Assembly: GCA_017302715.1 (NCBI GenBank)
Contig: JAFLCD010000001.1
Span: 310,001-374,000 of the forward strand
Direction: 5' to 3'
DNA: 64,000 bases
Origin: Deltaproteobacteria bacterium
GTDB lineage: Bacteria; Bdellovibrionota; UBA2394
The notes below the pieces were generated by a model. The model searched no databases. It had not been told where the DNA came from and saw only the letters and a program-made list of their open reading frames with translations. Shown piece by piece: positions 21,941 to 28,171 of this stretch. The translations under genes and the position numbers were made by a program. The stretch's first letter is position 1. Each line of letters starts with the position of its first letter.

Positions 21941-22674
21941 AAACTTGGTTTGTGAAAATTGGAAACTCTGAAGTAGTGGCATGGAACGGAGGTGTCAAAT
22001 TTCTCAGATTTTCGAGTTCAAAATTTTCTGTTGAAGGGTTTTTTAAAAAATTAGGTAAGACACAACGTCTTTGGGTGGTGGGTGTGGTGCCAAGTCTTCA
22101 AAGTAAGATCTCCCAAGTCGCCAGGAAAAAAGGAATCATAGTAAAACAATTGAAACTCTCTGATATTCCCGTTCGTCCTGCTTATCGAAAAAATTTAGGA
22201 ATCGATAGATTGCTGAATGTTTATGCAGCTTCTTTGATTTTAAAAAAAAGGGGTGGAGTCGTCATTGATTTAGGAACCGCTATCACAGTGGATTTTTTTA
22301 AGAAGAAGAAAAATTTAGTTTCGCATCTAGGCGGATGGATTTTACCAGGTCCGCGTTTGATGGCTGAAAGTTTAGCAGCGCAAACGGCGAAGATCCCCTT
22401 GGTTGGCAGAGAAGATTTGGAGAAGGTGAGGCTGGATACTTGGCCAAAGCGAACCTCTGAAACTTTAGTTTTGGGGCAGCTTCATTTGATTTATGCTCTA
22501 TTTATGGAAGCAGAGAGGTTTGCTGAGAAAAATTTGAAAGTGCCTCATCAGCTTTTAGTGACAGGTGGACATGCAGCTGCGTTTTATTTTATTCGCACAT
22601 CAAAAAAATATTCTTTTGTTCCTTATTTGGGATTGAAAGCTCTTAAAGTTCTAGAAAGAAAATCTTCCAGATGA
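21931..22674 (+). CDS. coaX: type III pantothenate kinase family protein (first Asp replaced)
   Basis: 247 residues from GTG 21931. The family phosphorylates pantothenate at the start of CoA synthesis. ASKHA-fold motifs present: GIDRLLNVYAA (substrate), VVIDLGTAITVDF (phosphate loop and Asp), GGWILPGPRLM and SLAAQTAKIP. However, the first phosphate loop, normally D-x-G-N-T, reads VKIGNSE: the conserved Asp is Lys (codon AAA at about residue 9). In studied members this Asp is one of three conserved acidic residues considered important for activity. So the enzyme may be altered, weak or regulatory. No second pantothenate kinase is in the window. Overlaps birA by 10 bases and the next gene by ATGA. 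Confidence 0.85.
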   Translation: MELKTWFVKIGNSEVVAWNGGVKFLRFSSSKFSVEGFFKKLGKTQRLWVVGVVPSLQSKISQVARKKGIIVKQLKLSDIPVRPAYRKNLGIDRLLNVYAASLILKKRGGVVIDLGTAITVDFFKKKKNLVSHLGGWILPGPRLMAESLAAQTAKIPLVGREDLEKVRLDTWPKRTSETLVLGQLHLIYALFMEAERFAEKNLKVPHQLLVTGGHAAAFYFIRTSKKYSFVPYLGLKALKVLERKSSR

Positions 22675-23753
22675 ATTACCCAAATTACGATGAGCTGCCT
22701 CCACAGTTAAAGCAAATTTTAGATCCATCGAAGCCAAAAAATATTGCGATGGTCGCCAGAGGGGTCGCTCCTTTGCCTCCCGCAACTTTGATCTCTGCTT
22801 GGTGTTATTTAGAAAGATCCGGAGAGCCAGAGATGTTAGCGGCGGCTAAAAAATCTTTAGATGAATATCCAGATAAAATGATGTTGCCGGTTTTGCAGAC
22901 CGAGCTTCCTTCGTGGGTTCTCTATCATTTAGGACTGCGATTTCTGATCAAAGATGAGTTTCTTGAATTTATTTTGCTTAATGATTTTAGTCCGGACGAA
23001 ATTTTCTTAGAAGCTGCAGCCGTTTGTTCAGAGAAAATGACAATTCTCATCTCTAACAATCAAGAAAGAATTATTCAAAGCCCAGAGCTTGTTAAGATTC
23101 TTGAAAAAAATCCTCAAAATTTAAAAAGTAATACCGATCGCTTAAAGCATTTTTTACATTTGGCGGGGATTCAAATTCCGGGCGAGCAAATGGCTGTTGG
23201 CGATGCACCCACCCCAGCGATGAAGGCAGCCATAGAAACTGCAACCTCTGAAAACGAAGCGGAATCTGAATCCACAGAAGACGCAGATGCCGCTGATTTG
23301 AAAAAGATTTCCGAAATTGGCACGGCCTTGAACGAAGAACAAAAACAAAGTTTGCTTCAATTTATATCGAAGTTGAATATTGGCGGTCGGATGAAGATCG
23401 CGATGAAGGGCAACAAAGAAGTTCGACAAATTTTAATTCGAGATTCGAATAAAATTGTTTCTATGGCTGTTCTTAAATCTCCTAGAATTACTGACAATGA
23501 AATCTGCCATTATTCAGCCCTTCGAAATGTTTCAGACGATGTAATTCGCGCGATTGGTGGAAATCCAACTTGGTCTAAGGTCTATCAAGTTAAATACAAT
23601 CTGTGTTTTCATCCTAAAACTCCGCTTCAACAATCCATGGTTTTTTTGAAATTTTTGAATATGCGAGACCTGGGGAAATTGGCAAAAGAGCGAAATATTC
23701 CTGGGCCTCTGCGTAAGGCCGCTAAAGAGCTTTTAGCCGTCAAACGTAAGTAG
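22671..23753 (+). CDS. conserved hypothetical protein, HEAT-like, deltaproteobacterial type
   Basis: 360 residues, cytoplasmic. The N-terminal 160 residues are helical. A Glu/Asp/Ala-rich acidic linker (about 190-215) leads to a C-terminal helical domain. That domain holds GGRMKIAMKGNKEVRQILIR, SPRITDNEICHY and NVSDDVIRAIGGN, phrases that I recall from conserved hypotheticals of myxobacteria and relatives. The pattern is of short repeated helices that may bind protein or RNA. The start overlaps the coaX stop by ATGA, so it belongs to that operon. The molecular function is unknown. Confidence 0.75.
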   Translation: MNYPNYDELPPQLKQILDPSKPKNIAMVARGVAPLPPATLISAWCYLERSGEPEMLAAAKKSLDEYPDKMMLPVLQTELPSWVLYHLGLRFLIKDEFLEFILLNDFSPDEIFLEAAAVCSEKMTILISNNQERIIQSPELVKILEKNPQNLKSNTDRLKHFLHLAGIQIPGEQMAVGDAPTPAMKAAIETATSENEAESESTEDADAADLKKISEIGTALNEEQKQSLLQFISKLNIGGRMKIAMKGNKEVRQILIRDSNKIVSMAVLKSPRITDNEICHYSALRNVSDDVIRAIGGNPTWSKVYQVKYNLCFHPKTPLQQSMVFLKFLNMRDLGKLAKERNIPGPLRKAAKELLAVKRK

Positions 23754-23789: not shown

Positions 23790-25226
23790 ATGAAAATCAT
23801 TATTCAAAGAAATATTTTACCCTTACTCGGAATTCTCTTTTTAGTTTTTGTTAGCGGTACGGACTCTTCTGAAGTTCCGATGATTGTGGGTGCTTTGATC
23901 GCAGGTCAAATTTTAGAAATCATTTTAAATTTTGTTTTTGAAAAACAGGTTTTAAAAATCGGCGGCGAAAAAGTGAAAAATTTATTTTCTCAAACTTCAA
24001 AGACAGAAAAATTTTGGTGGAAGTGGAGCTTTCTAACGGGATGGCTCATCTTAGGAGCGGCATTTGCTATTTTTAGATTCACCGATTTAAAAACAACCGC
24101 CGCTATTCTTTTGGTGGCGGCTCCTTTTTCTCTCTCCCTCGCTGTGAACTTAGGTTTGAAGGTAGGAATTTCTCATCTTTTAGCTTTGGGTCTTTTACCT
24201 CGCTCAAAAGATAGCTTTGAAAAGGCGGGTGAAGTGAATGTGATCACTTTTGATAAGAGAGGAAGTCTTTCGACAGCTCAGACTCAAGTTCAAAAAATGA
24301 AAACCATCGATAATTTTTCTCATCGCGATTTACTTCAGTACGCAGTTTCGATTGAACAGGGTTCTCAGCATCCGTTTGCGAATGCTATTCGTGCTAAAGC
24401 AGATGAAGAAAAAATTACTCCACTTAAAGTTTCAGACGTTCAAATTGTTGCAGGCAAAGGAGTGTCGGGATCAATTGAGATCGAGGGCAAACTTCAGAAA
24501 GTTTGTGTTGGAAATTTATTTTGGTTATTTGAAAATGATTATGATTCGACAAAGCTTCCGTCAGATTTGCAGTGGGAAGCGGATGGTTCTCATGATGCAG
24601 TTCTTTGGGTGGGTAGTGATCAAAAGTTTTTGGGAGTTTTAAGTATTTCGGATCCTCTTCGAGCCGAAGCCTTTGCAACGATTGAATCATTGGCTCATAA
24701 TGGTTACGAGATTGGTGTCATTACGGGCGATGCCGAGAATCCCACGAAAAAATTAGCTAAAGAATTAAAATTAAAATTTTTTCACTTCGGAGTTGTGGGA
24801 GATGAAAAGGCAACATTGGTAAAACGATTGGGACTTCCTAAGAAAAAAGGTCTCGATATGGTTACGGATCGAGTTGCTTTTGTAGGAAGTGCGGACCAAG
24901 AACAGAAAGCTTTAGAAGCGGCCTATTTTGGAATTGCTTTAGGTAATTCAGCTGAAGCCGATCTCGAGGTCCCTTCTCAAGATATTCGACAGATTGCCAA
25001 AGCCTTTGAGGTTTTTCAAAAGACGAACGGACTGATTTTTCAAAATCTTTTAATTTCTCTTCTCTATTTATTAGTGACCCTGCCTTTGGTGGGTGGAGCT
25101 TTAAATATACGTTTTGGTGTTTCTATCCCATTGAGTCTTTGTGCGTGCTTGGTGTCTATTCCACAGGTTTTGATTTTTCTTAACTCTATTCGTGCTTTGC
25201 GATCTAAAGTTGACGTCTCAAATTAA
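23790..25226 (+). CDS. P-type ATPase-like protein with degenerate catalytic motifs
   Basis: 478 residues. Membrane helices are at about 8-26, 80-96, 101-130, 415-437 and 445-466, around a cytoplasmic P/N-domain like that of P1B metal ATPases. The phosphorylation motif DKTGT reads DKRGS (Asp155 kept, Thr lost). The P1B His-Pro pair is present (Q-H194-P195). TGDN reads TGDA (312-315), and GDGxND reads GSADQE (366-371). The actuator domain with TGE is absent, and the metal-site CPC position reads APFSLS. It is therefore most likely a non-transporting pseudo-ATPase. The two genes that follow, for a CcmH-like protein and a CNB-cytochrome b protein, are close and co-directional. Confidence 0.85.
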   Translation: MKIIIQRNILPLLGILFLVFVSGTDSSEVPMIVGALIAGQILEIILNFVFEKQVLKIGGEKVKNLFSQTSKTEKFWWKWSFLTGWLILGAAFAIFRFTDLKTTAAILLVAAPFSLSLAVNLGLKVGISHLLALGLLPRSKDSFEKAGEVNVITFDKRGSLSTAQTQVQKMKTIDNFSHRDLLQYAVSIEQGSQHPFANAIRAKADEEKITPLKVSDVQIVAGKGVSGSIEIEGKLQKVCVGNLFWLFENDYDSTKLPSDLQWEADGSHDAVLWVGSDQKFLGVLSISDPLRAEAFATIESLAHNGYEIGVITGDAENPTKKLAKELKLKFFHFGVVGDEKATLVKRLGLPKKKGLDMVTDRVAFVGSADQEQKALEAAYFGIALGNSAEADLEVPSQDIRQIAKAFEVFQKTNGLIFQNLLISLLYLLVTLPLVGGALNIRFGVSIPLSLCACLVSIPQVLIFLNSIRALRSKVDVSN

Positions 25227-25244
25227 AACCCCGATTCTATCTGC

Positions 25245-25667
25245 ATGAATAATTCTCTGCTCACGAATACACTTTTGGTGATCATTGCTACGTTGCTTTT
25301 AGTTTTAGTCATTCAGAATTCAATGCGAGGACCTGGAGGGTTCGATCGACCTGTAATTTCTCATTCAGATGCACCCGCACCTACTCCTCATCCTGGTATG
25401 GGTGGTGGCAATTCCGCTCTGCAAAATATGGGAACCAGTATGGTGTTTCAGGCGCTTAAAGCTTTTCCTGCAGGATGCGAAGGTAAACAAGTTTTGGCAG
25501 ATTGCTCCTCGCCAGCAGCTGAAGCTGTGAAAGCACAGATTTTAAAGCTTGAGGAAGCTGGTCAGGGCCCACGGCAAATTTTTGATTTTGTAGTCAATAC
25601 TTGGGGAGAAAAAGTTTTAACGGATCAAGCGCTTCAAATTCGAAGAATGAGAGTTAAAGCTAAATAA
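25245..25667 (+). CDS. membrane-anchored CcmH/NrfF-like protein without CxxC
   Basis: 140 residues: one N-terminal helix (TLLVIIATLLLVLVI), a Pro/Gly-rich linker, then a three-helix domain at about 72-133. The stretch VLADCSSPAAEAVKAQILKL, followed by GPRQIFDFVVNTWGEKVL, matches the order and character of CcmH/CcmL-type cytochrome c maturation proteins (LADS-x-APLA, G-x-S-D-x-E-I-x-D-F-x-V-x-x-Y-G). The catalytic RCxxC is not preserved: one Cys (GC at about 79) roughly aligns with the second Cys, and the first is gone. It lies between the pseudo-ATPase and the cytochrome b gene. A heme- or apocytochrome-related role is inferred. Confidence 0.6.
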   Translation: MNNSLLTNTLLVIIATLLLVLVIQNSMRGPGGFDRPVISHSDAPAPTPHPGMGGGNSALQNMGTSMVFQALKAFPAGCEGKQVLADCSSPAAEAVKAQILKLEEAGQGPRQIFDFVVNTWGEKVLTDQALQIRRMRVKAK

Positions 25668-25673
25668 AATTTC

Positions 25674-27026
25674 GTGAACGCCGACCTTCATAAAATTCGA
25701 AAGTCGCGCCTTTTTAAAAATCTTCCAGAGAGAGTATTTGCTCGCATCGTTTCTCAGATGAAAGTGCGCGCGTATACCGAGGGAGAGATGGCGCTTACAC
25801 TAAAGCAGGGCGGAGAATTTTCTCGTTATATTGGTTACGTGATTTCAGGAAGAATTTTATTTTTAAACGCAGAGCAAAAGCCGCTCGGAATTGCGATTAA
25901 AGATGAGTTCGTTTTAGGTCGGCCTTTTTCAATTCAAGATTCAAATGTAACTCATCTGTTATCAGGGCAAGAGGGTACCTTTATTGTTTTTATTCCTAAA
26001 GAGACTTTGGCCATTTTATCTGGAGCCTCAAGTCAGTTCGCCGAGATGTTTGAAGAAATTTACGAAAGTATTTTTGAAAGAGCTCGCATTATTGCGAGTG
26101 ATGCGGCTTCTTATCAAAAAATTCAAGATTGGATTAAGCATACAACCGAATCAGATAAAACACTTTCGCCTTGGCTTTTGGCGATTGAGAAAAAGCGTCT
26201 AGAGTCAGCAGAGCGACGCATACGCAATGAAGAGAATAGAAAAATTATTCAGTTTTCTTGGTTCGTAGGAATAGCCGCAATTATTTTTGTCGCTTTTTAC
26301 GCTTATATGCACCGTGGAGATTTTAAGGCTGGAAATTCTTTTAACGTAAATATTGGAATCATCGGATTTATTTTAATTTTGCTGACCAATCTTCACACTA
26401 TTTTGGTTCGCGGAATGCGAAATCATAAATGGAAAATAAATTATCAAGTTTCTCAGAACTACCATATTTTCTTTGGAGTTTGCGGCGCCGTGATGATTCT
26501 CTTTCACTCGGCTTTTCAACTGAAGGGTATGAATGTCGCTCACTTTGCGATCTACGCCATGGGCTTAGGATTATTATCCGGATTCATTGGCCAATTTATT
26601 TCAAATCAAATTCCAAAAACCATTCGCGGCGAGAAAATGAAATTGGATTCGCTGAAAGGTGAGCAGAAAAAATTACAAGCGAAGGCTGAGATGTTGATGG
26701 AAAACGAAGGAATGTATAAAACTTCGGTCGCTCTTATTTCTCAAGGTATTCCTACTTCGTTTTGGGGAAATTTTTTTGCGGCTCCTCAACTTTGGTATCG
26801 TCGCTTCAAGTTGAAGCAAACTTTAAAGGAGCTCGGTCTCTCTAAAAACAGCGCAGACCTAGCTGCAGATCTTGTAAAAAAAGAATTTCAAATGCGGCAA
26901 AAAGTTCGGATGCTCGAGATGTCGGATGTTTTTTTTAGAAAGTGGATGCTTATTCATAAGCCACTTGGATATTTAGTTTATGTACTAGCGATCATCCATA
27001 TCATCTGGGTGAGTGTAGTTATCTAA
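25674..27026 (+). CDS. CNB-domain protein fused to a diheme cytochrome b-like membrane domain
   Basis: 450 residues from GTG 25674. Residues about 10-125 form a cyclic-nucleotide-binding-type beta-barrel (YVISGRILFLN), but the phosphate-binding cassette reads FVLGRPFSIQD and lacks the usual Glu and Arg, so the ligand may differ. A charged helix (150-190) leads to membrane helices at about 193-212, 226-246, 263-281, 288-310 and 428-449. Two of them carry His pairs exactly 14 apart: H264/H278 and H428/H442. That is the classic arrangement for two b hemes held by four His. A 110-residue cytoplasmic loop (about 315-425) separates them. Likely a membrane electron-transfer protein with a regulatory sensor domain. 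Confidence 0.75.
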   Translation: MNADLHKIRKSRLFKNLPERVFARIVSQMKVRAYTEGEMALTLKQGGEFSRYIGYVISGRILFLNAEQKPLGIAIKDEFVLGRPFSIQDSNVTHLLSGQEGTFIVFIPKETLAILSGASSQFAEMFEEIYESIFERARIIASDAASYQKIQDWIKHTTESDKTLSPWLLAIEKKRLESAERRIRNEENRKIIQFSWFVGIAAIIFVAFYAYMHRGDFKAGNSFNVNIGIIGFILILLTNLHTILVRGMRNHKWKINYQVSQNYHIFFGVCGAVMILFHSAFQLKGMNVAHFAIYAMGLGLLSGFIGQFISNQIPKTIRGEKMKLDSLKGEQKKLQAKAEMLMENEGMYKTSVALISQGIPTSFWGNFFAAPQLWYRRFKLKQTLKELGLSKNSADLAADLVKKEFQMRQKVRMLEMSDVFFRKWMLIHKPLGYLVYVLAIIHIIWVSVVI

Positions 27027-28171
27027 GCCGCTTTTGAATGCGTATGATAAATGCGCCCTTTCCATTTAGAGCGTTGTCCTCTCCAAAAACGAATCGCCGA
27101 AGTCCAGGTCATCATTAAATAGAGAACGCCGATAAACGGCATCAAGAAAGCCCAAAGCGGAGCGCGTTTATAATAAAGAAGCGTAGGTTTATACGTAAAA
27201 ATCATCGCGACAAATCCAAAGAGATTTATACTTCGAATCCAAGGCGTTTCAGCCAAAAAACTTCCAAACAAAGGGCCTAAAAACATCGCCGTCATAATGA
27301 AGGTGCAGCCAAGTAAAAGTAAATTTGAATACTGAAGTTGAGTGAATGCTGATCGCGCCACCATATCCCAAATACTTTTAAGATTTGGGTAATCGCGATG
27401 ACTCACCACAGAGTGAGTAAGTCCGAGCCAAGTTTTAAATCCTTTTTCTTTTACTTTTTTTGCAAGACCACAGTCATCGATTAAGGCATTTCGTAAAACA
27501 TTAAATCCGCCAATTTTTTCTAAAACTTCTGCGCGAAGAAAAATGCAGCCGCCTGCTGCTGCCGCCATTTTAGAACGAGGAGAATTCGCGAGCGAAAACG
27601 GATAAAGTAATTTGAAAAAATAAATAAACGAAGGAACCAAAAGTTTTTCCCAAAAAGTTTGCATTCGAAGATGCGCCATCAACGAGACAAAATCTAAATT
27701 TTCAGATTCTAGTTTTTGTTTAAGAGTAGAAATAATTCGAGGTTTCAGCAAAATATCAGCGTCTAATAAAAGAATGTATTTCGTTTTAACTTGAGTTCGA
27801 CCTTGCTCGAGAGCCCAAAGTTTTCCAGCCCAACCTTCGGGCAAAGTTTCACCGCGCACAACTTTGAGATCTCCCTGAAAACTTTTCTGTGCAATTTCTC
27901 CAGTTCCATCGCTTGATTGGTCATCCACTAAAACCCACTGAAGATTTTTACCCTGATGGTTGAGGGCTTCAGCTGTATGCGCGATCACTTCGGCCTCATC
28001 TCGAGCGGGAGTGAGTACCGTCACATCCGAAAGATCGAAAGCTGAATCGATATCTAAAGAATCAAGAGCTTCGCGAGTGCTCCAAGGTTTCCAGGGAAGA
28101 AAAAAAATAGCGATCCAAGCGAGAGGGCCGATCAACCAAAGGCTTTCGAGAATGAAAAACATGATCAGCAC
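27023..28171 (-). CDS. hpnB: HpnB-type family 2 glycosyltransferase
   Basis: 382 residues from GTG 28171 (ATG 28162 also possible). It matches the hopene-associated HpnB type throughout: VTVLTPARDEAEVIAHTAEA, WVLVDDQSSDGTGE, GWAGKLWALEQG, LLLDADI (metal Asp-x-Asp), FFKLLYPFSLAN, AAAAGGCIFLRAEVLEKIGG, NALIDDCGLAKKVK, and membrane helices near residues 8-24 and 285-365. It should transfer a sugar to a membrane lipid. No hopanoid pathway gene occurs in the window, so the acceptor is uncertain. It is convergent with the CNB-cytochrome gene, and their stop codons overlap. Confidence 0.85.
   Translation of the reverse strand: MLIMFFILESLWLIGPLAWIAIFFLPWKPWSTREALDSLDIDSAFDLSDVTVLTPARDEAEVIAHTAEALNHQGKNLQWVLVDDQSSDGTGEIAQKSFQGDLKVVRGETLPEGWAGKLWALEQGRTQVKTKYILLLDADILLKPRIISTLKQKLESENLDFVSLMAHLRMQTFWEKLLVPSFIYFFKLLYPFSLANSPRSKMAAAAGGCIFLRAEVLEKIGGFNVLRNALIDDCGLAKKVKEKGFKTWLGLTHSVVSHRDYPNLKSIWDMVARSAFTQLQYSNLLLLGCTFIMTAMFLGPLFGSFLAETPWIRSINLFGFVAMIFTYKPTLLYYKRAPLWAFLMPFIGVLYLMMTWTSAIRFWRGQRSKWKGRIYHTHSKAA

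Follow-up and report, generated by a model that had tools for sequence, protein, structure and literature searches.

A copper-pump relative that lost its transport parts and kept its nucleotide-binding head, encoded with a CcmH-like protein and a predicted dihaem cytochrome b in Bdellovibrionota

Why would a bacterium keep the remains of a copper pump next to a CcmH-like protein and a membrane protein that carries the histidine pattern of a dihaem cytochrome b? P-type ATPases are treated as pumps, and their cytosolic domains are regarded as driving transport. The question is raised by a trio of genes in a 64,000-nt stretch of DNA from a member of the Bdellovibrionota ("the window" hereafter means the whole stretch). 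The original prediction described three co-directional genes with gaps of 18 and 6 bases, and the open reading frames (ORFs) were found on the plus strand with exactly these intergenic distances:

23790..25226, plus strand: gene 1, 478 amino acids (aa), a transport-dead protein derived from a CPC-type Cu(I) P1B-ATPase (from TIGR01525 positions 185-559, the orthologue alignment, and a residue table)
25245..25667, plus strand: gene 2, 140 aa, with an N-terminal membrane anchor, a linker, and a CcmH-like helical domain
25674..27026, plus strand: gene 3, 450 aa, a cyclic-nucleotide-binding (CNB)-like domain fused to a predicted five-helix dihaem cytochrome b

The genome containing the window is referred to as G000 and the other genomes of the family as G001-G004. 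The analysis indicates that gene 1 is almost certainly a dead pump with a retained nucleotide-binding (N) domain.

The match of gene 1 to the heavy-metal P-type ATPase model TIGR01525 is confined to the latter half of the model (2.3e-57, profile positions 185-559); PF00702 matches in addition. The window protein is devoid of the actuator domain (TGE), the His-rich N-terminus, and MA-MB, and in its last two helices YN has become Y-L and MxxSS has become V..P-Q. The sites that were lost, kept, or added elsewhere in the protein are as follows:

24120..24128, plus strand: lost CPC site, residues 111-113, reading A-P-F (AAPFS in the CPC region), from the orthologue alignment
24252..24272, plus strand: phosphorylation motif DKRGSLS (DKTGTLT in intact orthologues) with Asp155 and Lys156 kept, from the alignment and residue table
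24291..24590, plus strand: N domain, residues 168-267, with E189, H194-P195, G222, G224, G241, and N242 kept
24840..24860, plus strand: P-domain insertion KKKGLDM (K..KGLDM across orthologues), present in all five orthologues including both dead pumps
24885..24902, plus strand: GSADQE in place of the Mg-binding GDGxND, from the alignment and residue table

ATP turnover by the window protein is not expected from these residues because GDGxND is lost, although Asp155 is kept. A structure predicted from the single sequence was unusable, with a mean predicted local distance difference test (pLDDT) score of 40.

Lost catalytic motifs had been proposed for the P-type ATPase of the trio. This holds for the window protein, while across the family the ATPase is degenerate in two of the five orthologues and intact in three. 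In G001, G002, and G004, gene 1 encodes a complete pump of 677-693 aa that carries the His-rich N-terminus, TGES, CPC, DKTGTLT, GDGxND, YN, and MxxSS, and scores 453, 435, and 438 bits, respectively, with TIGR01511, for which the curated copper-translocating cut-off is 397. Judged by sequence, gene 1 is thus derived from a Cu(I) P1B-ATPase. The second degenerate orthologue, that of G003, shows the same losses as the window protein, namely of the actuator domain, CPC, YN, MxxSS, and GDGxND. The two proteins do not share the same deletions: the window protein has in addition lost helices 1 and 2 together with its N-terminal region, while G003 retains these helices. Sequencing error as the source of the dead motifs was considered and set aside in view of several independent changes, the clean frame, and the second genome.

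The residues that contact ATP in human ATP7B are G1099, G1101, G1149, and N1150 (PMC3203118). They correspond to G222, G224, G241, and N242 of gene 1, all of which are retained, as are the HP motif and the N-domain glutamate. Branch lengths computed with the species tree fixed revealed that the membrane part of the dead pumps evolves 5-8 times faster than in the intact sister (M3-M6: 1.44 in the window protein vs 0.19 in G002, and 2.34 in G003 vs 0.47 in G004), while the N domain evolves equally fast or slightly faster (0.42 vs 0.42 and 0.71 vs 0.53 in the same pairs). Likewise, 34 of the 40 N-domain residues that are invariant in the three intact pumps are kept in the window protein and 31 in G003, compared with only 22 and 17 of the 60 invariant M3-M6 residues (Fisher p about 2e-6 for each against the N domain). 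The N-domain differences between G000 and G002 at the three codon positions, 0.32, 0.26, and 0.56, are similar to those of intact-pump pairs, and this codon pattern is that expected of a constrained gene.

The P-domain insertion is absent from 27 of the 28 other P1B-ATPases of the phylum that are readable there; in the 28th, the insertion is of an unrelated kind. The five orthologues also have in common 24 residues that are rare in those other pumps. All of them lie in the head, a location that is partly expected, as the dead pumps have lost most other regions. The pattern suggests that the head does more than drive transport and that this additional function is older than the losses. Binding of ATP or ADP by the head appears likely.

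To place the losses, a species tree was calculated from five other proteins (glycosyltransferase, CcmF, DHH phosphoesterase, HemA, and oxidase subunit 1; 2,206 columns), with oxidase subunit 1 taken from four genomes and some of the proteins partial. The resulting topology was ((G000,G002),(G003,G004),G001), with full support for G003-G004 and 99.4/100 for G000-G002, and all three topologies uniting G000 and G003 were rejected by the approximately unbiased (AU) test with p at most 3.3e-4. Each dead pump has an intact pump as its sister, G000 with G002 and G003 with G004. Since the sisters are intact and regain of a lost domain is implausible, transport was very probably lost at least twice, independently in G000 and in G003. 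Passage of a dead allele between the lineages by transfer is an unlikely alternative.

The trio is kept as a unit within the family. Reading of the surrounding DNA showed the order of genes 1, 2, and 3, followed by a convergent glycosyltransferase gene, in all five family genomes. In the window, this neighbour is:

27023..28171, minus strand: glycosyltransferase family 2 gene, convergent, a neighbour in five of five family genomes and used as a synteny marker, outside the proposed system

The gaps within the trio are at most about 31 bases, except in G002, where two unrelated genes intervene before gene 2. These lie between the pump gene and gene 2 (L009:3409-4484), one being a helix-turn-helix (XRE-like) gene and both being on the opposite strand; they resemble a toxin-antitoxin or nucleotidyltransferase pair that was inserted in the operon. 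In G001, gene 3 consists of the N-terminal CNB-like domain and has no membrane part (L012:7341-7967). There this short gene directly meets the convergent glycosyltransferase gene, and the cytochrome was either lost in G001 or gained in the others.

When 369 genomes of the phylum were searched with a profile, gene 2 turned up in five, and these are the five family genomes. Strong matches to the N-terminal domain of gene 3 were likewise confined to these five, with four weak ones elsewhere. A protein search of 59 relatives returned orthologues of gene 3 in all four other family genomes and distant matches to the membrane part only in three further genomes. Hence the expectation that the trio is kept together in relatives is borne out for the family, where members have diverged to about 45% identity, and does not extend to Bdellovibrionota in general. 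As all three genes are kept together in five of five family genomes and four histidines of gene 3 are invariant in 44 homologues, the trio is not a chance arrangement; by these comparisons it is real, old, and family-restricted among the genomes searched. A scan of genome contigs with gene 3 as a single protein, using exact and therefore insensitive peptide patterns, gave no match, and a scan of viral contigs with the gene 1 and gene 2 profiles gave no relatives. The number of promoter sites was not above that in shuffled sequence, and seven terminator-like sites were found compared with 3.8 expected. Just upstream of the trio, on the same strand, is a 360-aa ORF (window 22671-23753) without a Pfam match, and no counterpart precedes the pump gene in the relatives that were read.

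For gene 2, a CcmH-type helical domain without RCxxC had been predicted. The match to PF03918 falls just below the cut-off (2e-5, profile 44-90, the helical part of CcmH; 24.3 bits vs 25), and a gene 2 profile matched only CcmH among solved structures (2kw0 and 2hl7, E 0.005 and 0.04). In place of LRCxxC, gene 2 has the conserved core FPxGC-x8-C followed by CcmH-like helices, and Cys78-x8-Cys87 is invariant in the five orthologues. Compared with CcmH, the C-terminal helix has been lost and an N-terminal anchor gained. Because gene 2 aligns with the family's own CcmH through both cysteines, we read it as a derived CcmH paralogue with an N-terminal anchor, and its domain is assumed, from the example of CcmH, to be periplasmic. 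Gene 2 is not encoded with CcmF or CcmG; the canonical CcmH of the window genome lies near CcmF on another contig (G000:C2), and the family has what looks like a full system I, including CcmF, CcmC, and a CcmH of its own. In the canonical CcmH of the five genomes (L073-L077), C-x7-C (CKGNSLLEC) takes the place of RCxxC. PF03918 CcmH was detected in 6 of the 59 sampled genomes of the phylum, and the family is among the few there with system I.

Gene 3 had no family above cut-off in the family-model searches. The features of the window protein are:

25674..26153, plus strand: CNB-like domain, about residues 1-160
26463..26507, plus strand: putative haem ligands of transmembrane helix (TM) 3, H264-x13-H278, invariant in 44 sequences
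26577..26591, plus strand: TM4 SGxxG motif, S302, G303, and G306, invariant in 44 sequences (motif described in PMC5566968)
26943..26999, plus strand: putative haem ligands of TM5, W424-x3-H428-x13-H442, invariant in 44 sequences

The two HX13H helices proposed for gene 3 were recovered, and the N-terminus gave weak matches to CNB domains. PF00027 matched the N-terminus in one of the five orthologues (4.7e-5), and the N-terminal profile matched mostly cGMP-kinase and CRP-type domains (best PDB E 0.0048). A cyclic nucleotide is doubtful as the ligand, since no phosphate-binding cassette with its conserved Glu and Arg was recognisable when the alignment was judged by eye; ligand sensing is suggested by the CNB-like fold. 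Hydropathy analysis of the four full-length orthologues predicted five TM helices in the C-terminal part, and the positive-loop charge pattern leads us to expect the CNB-like domain in the cytosol. The structure model was good in the membrane part only and failed in the CNB-like region; it had no significant fold match in the PDB.

Failure to bind haem is unlikely because the four ligand histidines are invariant, and the C-terminal part is in all likelihood a dihaem cytochrome b. A scan of 84,980 species genomes gave 404 loci with relatives of the cytochrome, and the following counts rest on 80 of them, from Bdellovibrionota, Calditrichota, Zixibacteria, Ignavibacteria, Bacteroidota, Nitrospirae, Acidobacteria, and others. 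In 71 of these 80 loci the cytochrome gene could be identified. Multihaem cytochrome c genes, identified by motif counts, lie within 5 kb in 66 of these 71, and 33 of the 66 also have an FAD/iron-sulphur oxidoreductase. In a metagenome-assembled genome of Bdellovibrionales (L083), a 1243-aa ORF with 27 CxxCH motifs adjoins a relative of the cytochrome b. The PCC3/PCC4 inner-membrane proteins of iron oxidisers have five helices, SGxxG, and WX3HX13H twice, and were proposed to be quinone-active dihaem cytochromes b (PMC5566968). Its motifs place the cytochrome of gene 3 among the PCC3/PCC4-type inner-membrane proteins, and the suggestion that it is new does not stand.

How could these parts work together? 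We tentatively favour a family-specific membrane redox complex in which the former pump head is an ATP/ADP-binding regulatory subunit, although we give this reading somewhat less than an even chance. The trio would then be an inner-membrane redox complex grown around a copper pump. Gene 3 would move electrons across the membrane via two b-type haems, probably linking the quinone pool to an acceptor in the periplasm, with its CNB-like domain regulating from the cytosol, and gene 2 would hold its CcmH-derived cysteine pair adjoining gene 3. Gene 1 would once have been a Cu(I) exporter, as it presumably still is in three relatives, and its cytosolic head (the N domain and much of the P domain) would bind ATP or ADP and dock a partner, probably gene 3, via the family-specific insertion. 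After the loss of transport, gene 1 would have become a membrane-tethered nucleotide-sensing regulatory subunit, and the head and the CNB-like domain would control electron flow through the cytochrome to a periplasmic acceptor near gene 2. We lean towards the view that the three proteins form a complex, while electron transfer to or near gene 2 is possible and somewhat doubtful; the original prediction's idea that the complex moves heme, metal, or electrons stays at the level of inference. Constant in the five genomes are the nucleotide-binding head, the CcmH-like domain, and the CNB-like domain, while transport is dispensable in two genomes and the cytochrome in one; this retention pattern therefore points to a regulatory or assembly core with pumping and electron transfer attached. 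A P1B-ATPase that acts as a hub is known from cbb3 oxidase assembly, where CcoI cooperates with a cupric reductase and the periplasmic chaperone SenC (PMC8475189); in that system, however, transport is essential. We consider rather unlikely the bolder version, a signalling/redox complex in which the pump headpiece has twice independently become a dedicated ATP/ADP sensor that gates both a dihaem cytochrome b under CNB control and a thiol protein derived from CcmH. If true, it would provide a natural P-type ATPase pseudoenzyme, kept solely for nucleotide sensing and partner docking.

Several observations weigh against the redox complex. G001 keeps the trio without the cytochrome part, so electron transfer is not a function of the trio in every member. 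DsbD is present in all five genomes, which leaves no obvious need for gene 3 to reduce thiols. No multihaem cytochrome c or porin gene was found beside the trio in the family genomes, and the charge distribution of gene 2 gives no clear side for its anchor. Moreover, the ATPase's own tree weakly unites the two dead pumps, an effect that stems from the fast-evolving membrane part, and for the membrane part alone the species topology was rejected (AU p 0.01). For the whole ATPase, the species topology was not rejected (AU p 0.31), and for the N domain alone it was the best tree, other topologies being compatible as well. The grouping of the dead pumps is probably due to long-branch attraction. 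Thiol reduction as the sole function, which was also considered, is weakened by the presence of DsbD in all five genomes.

Among the alternatives, a copper-handling module for oxidase assembly, in the style of CcoG-CcoH-CcoI with a Sco-type chaperone, survives best, and is nevertheless unlikely. Gene 3 would reduce Cu(II), gene 1 would export Cu(I), and the cysteine pair of gene 2 would receive it; in two lineages other pumps would have taken over export, leaving gene 1 as an assembly hub. The Cu(I) pumps among the orthologues, the aa3-type oxidase in the family, and the partners of CcoI mentioned above are in line with this explanation. The window genome also encodes a separate intact pump of the CopA type as well as a CcoI-like one, and these may have released gene 1 from transport. 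However, no other P1B pump was detected in G003 (90% complete), which still has the aa3-type oxidase, so release by other pumps is no general rule. Sco/SenC and separate CcoI-like genes are already present, and CcmH domains are not known to act as copper chaperones. The CNB-like domain and the retention of the N domain after transport loss would both be left unexplained by a copper module alone.

An auxiliary module for cytochrome c maturation, with gene 2 as a CcmH paralogue acting on apocytochrome thiols and reduced by electrons from gene 3, is improbable. The likeness of gene 2 to CcmH, its invariant cysteine pair, and the family's system I, which includes CcmF and a CcmH of its own and is uncommon in the phylum sample (6 of 59 genomes), fit such a role, but a canonical CcmH and DsbD are both present and gene 2 has exchanged the C-terminal helix of CcmH for an N-terminal anchor. 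The copper pump and the retained ATP-binding head would also remain without an explanation.

We regard as still weaker the proposal that the trio oxidises quinol at the inner membrane for an extracellular or periplasmic electron-transfer chain, the role suggested for the PCC3/PCC4 inner-membrane proteins, with the CNB-like domain and the dead pump as tuning elements and with multihaem cytochromes whose genes lie elsewhere. It agrees with the family relationship of the cytochrome, with the multihaem genes near most of its relatives, and with their presence elsewhere in four of the five family genomes. Against it stand the lack of a multihaem or porin gene at the locus and the trio of G001 without the cytochrome part. 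The multihaem cytochromes c encoded away from the trio are 746-771 aa in size (L214, L219), the one of G004 having 27 CxxCH motifs, and they are possible partners of the cytochrome b.

Finally, that gene 1 is a slowly decaying in-frame pseudogene and the three genes mere neighbours is very improbable: the large deletions, the disappearance of all transport motifs, and the fast membrane domain speak for decay, but the frame is clean at saturating divergence, the N-domain rate is intact-like, the family-specific insertion is retained in two lineages, and the gene order is conserved.

Evolution appears to have removed transport twice and to have kept the ATP-binding head under about normal selection. 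If confirmed, this would mean a transport-independent function of a P-type ATPase head and a concrete system in which to study it, and it would add a case of a PCC-type cytochrome b brought under cytosolic control. The five genomes already form a comparison set of their own, with an intact pump alongside the cytochrome, an intact pump lacking it, and a dead pump alongside it.

The original prediction knew of no described system with this gene content, and none was found in the literature searched, outside which most subscription journals lie; the same search gave nothing relevant on degenerate or pseudo P-type ATPases. The parts are of known kinds, while their combination, the CNB-cytochrome b fusion, and the repeated pump conversion are not described there. 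The intact orthologues share every tested motif with the Cu(I) P1B-1 ATPases (CopA, CcoI; TIGR01511), and gene 1 shares the N domain and part of the P domain, but it differs in the missing actuator, CPC, YN, MxxSS, and GDGxND and in its family-specific P-domain insertion. Gene 2 resembles CcmH/CycL/NrfF (PF03918) in the helical domain and the cysteine pair, which is non-canonical in the family's CcmH as well. Those proteins have a signal peptide and a C-terminal helix, whereas gene 2 has an N-terminal anchor, C-x8-C, and no CcmF beside it. Gene 3 shares five helices, SGxxG on TM4, HX13H on TM3, and WX3HX13H on TM5 with the PCC3/PCC4 inner-membrane proteins (PMC5566968), which are its nearest known kin together with the ferric reductase domain superfamily (PF01794, PMC3591440). 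In contrast to the PCC3/PCC4 proteins, it carries the N-terminal CNB-like fusion, the family misses the first W on TM3, and multihaem cytochrome and porin genes do not adjoin it as in the PCC3/PCC4 clusters. Its N-terminus is weakly similar in sequence and profile to CNB proteins of the CRP/PKG type (PF00027), but it lacks a recognisable phosphate-binding cassette and is not joined to a DNA-binding or kinase domain. No CcoG polyferredoxin or cbb3 oxidase genes were found at the trio locus, oxidase and CcoI-like genes lying elsewhere. As a set, the trio can be compared with the copper-oxidase assembly group CcoGHIS/FixGHIS, in which a P1B-ATPase is likewise joined by a membrane redox protein and a small anchored protein; there, the redox protein is the polyferredoxin CcoG and the small protein is CcoH, while the trio has a predicted dihaem cytochrome b and a CcmH-like protein in these places.

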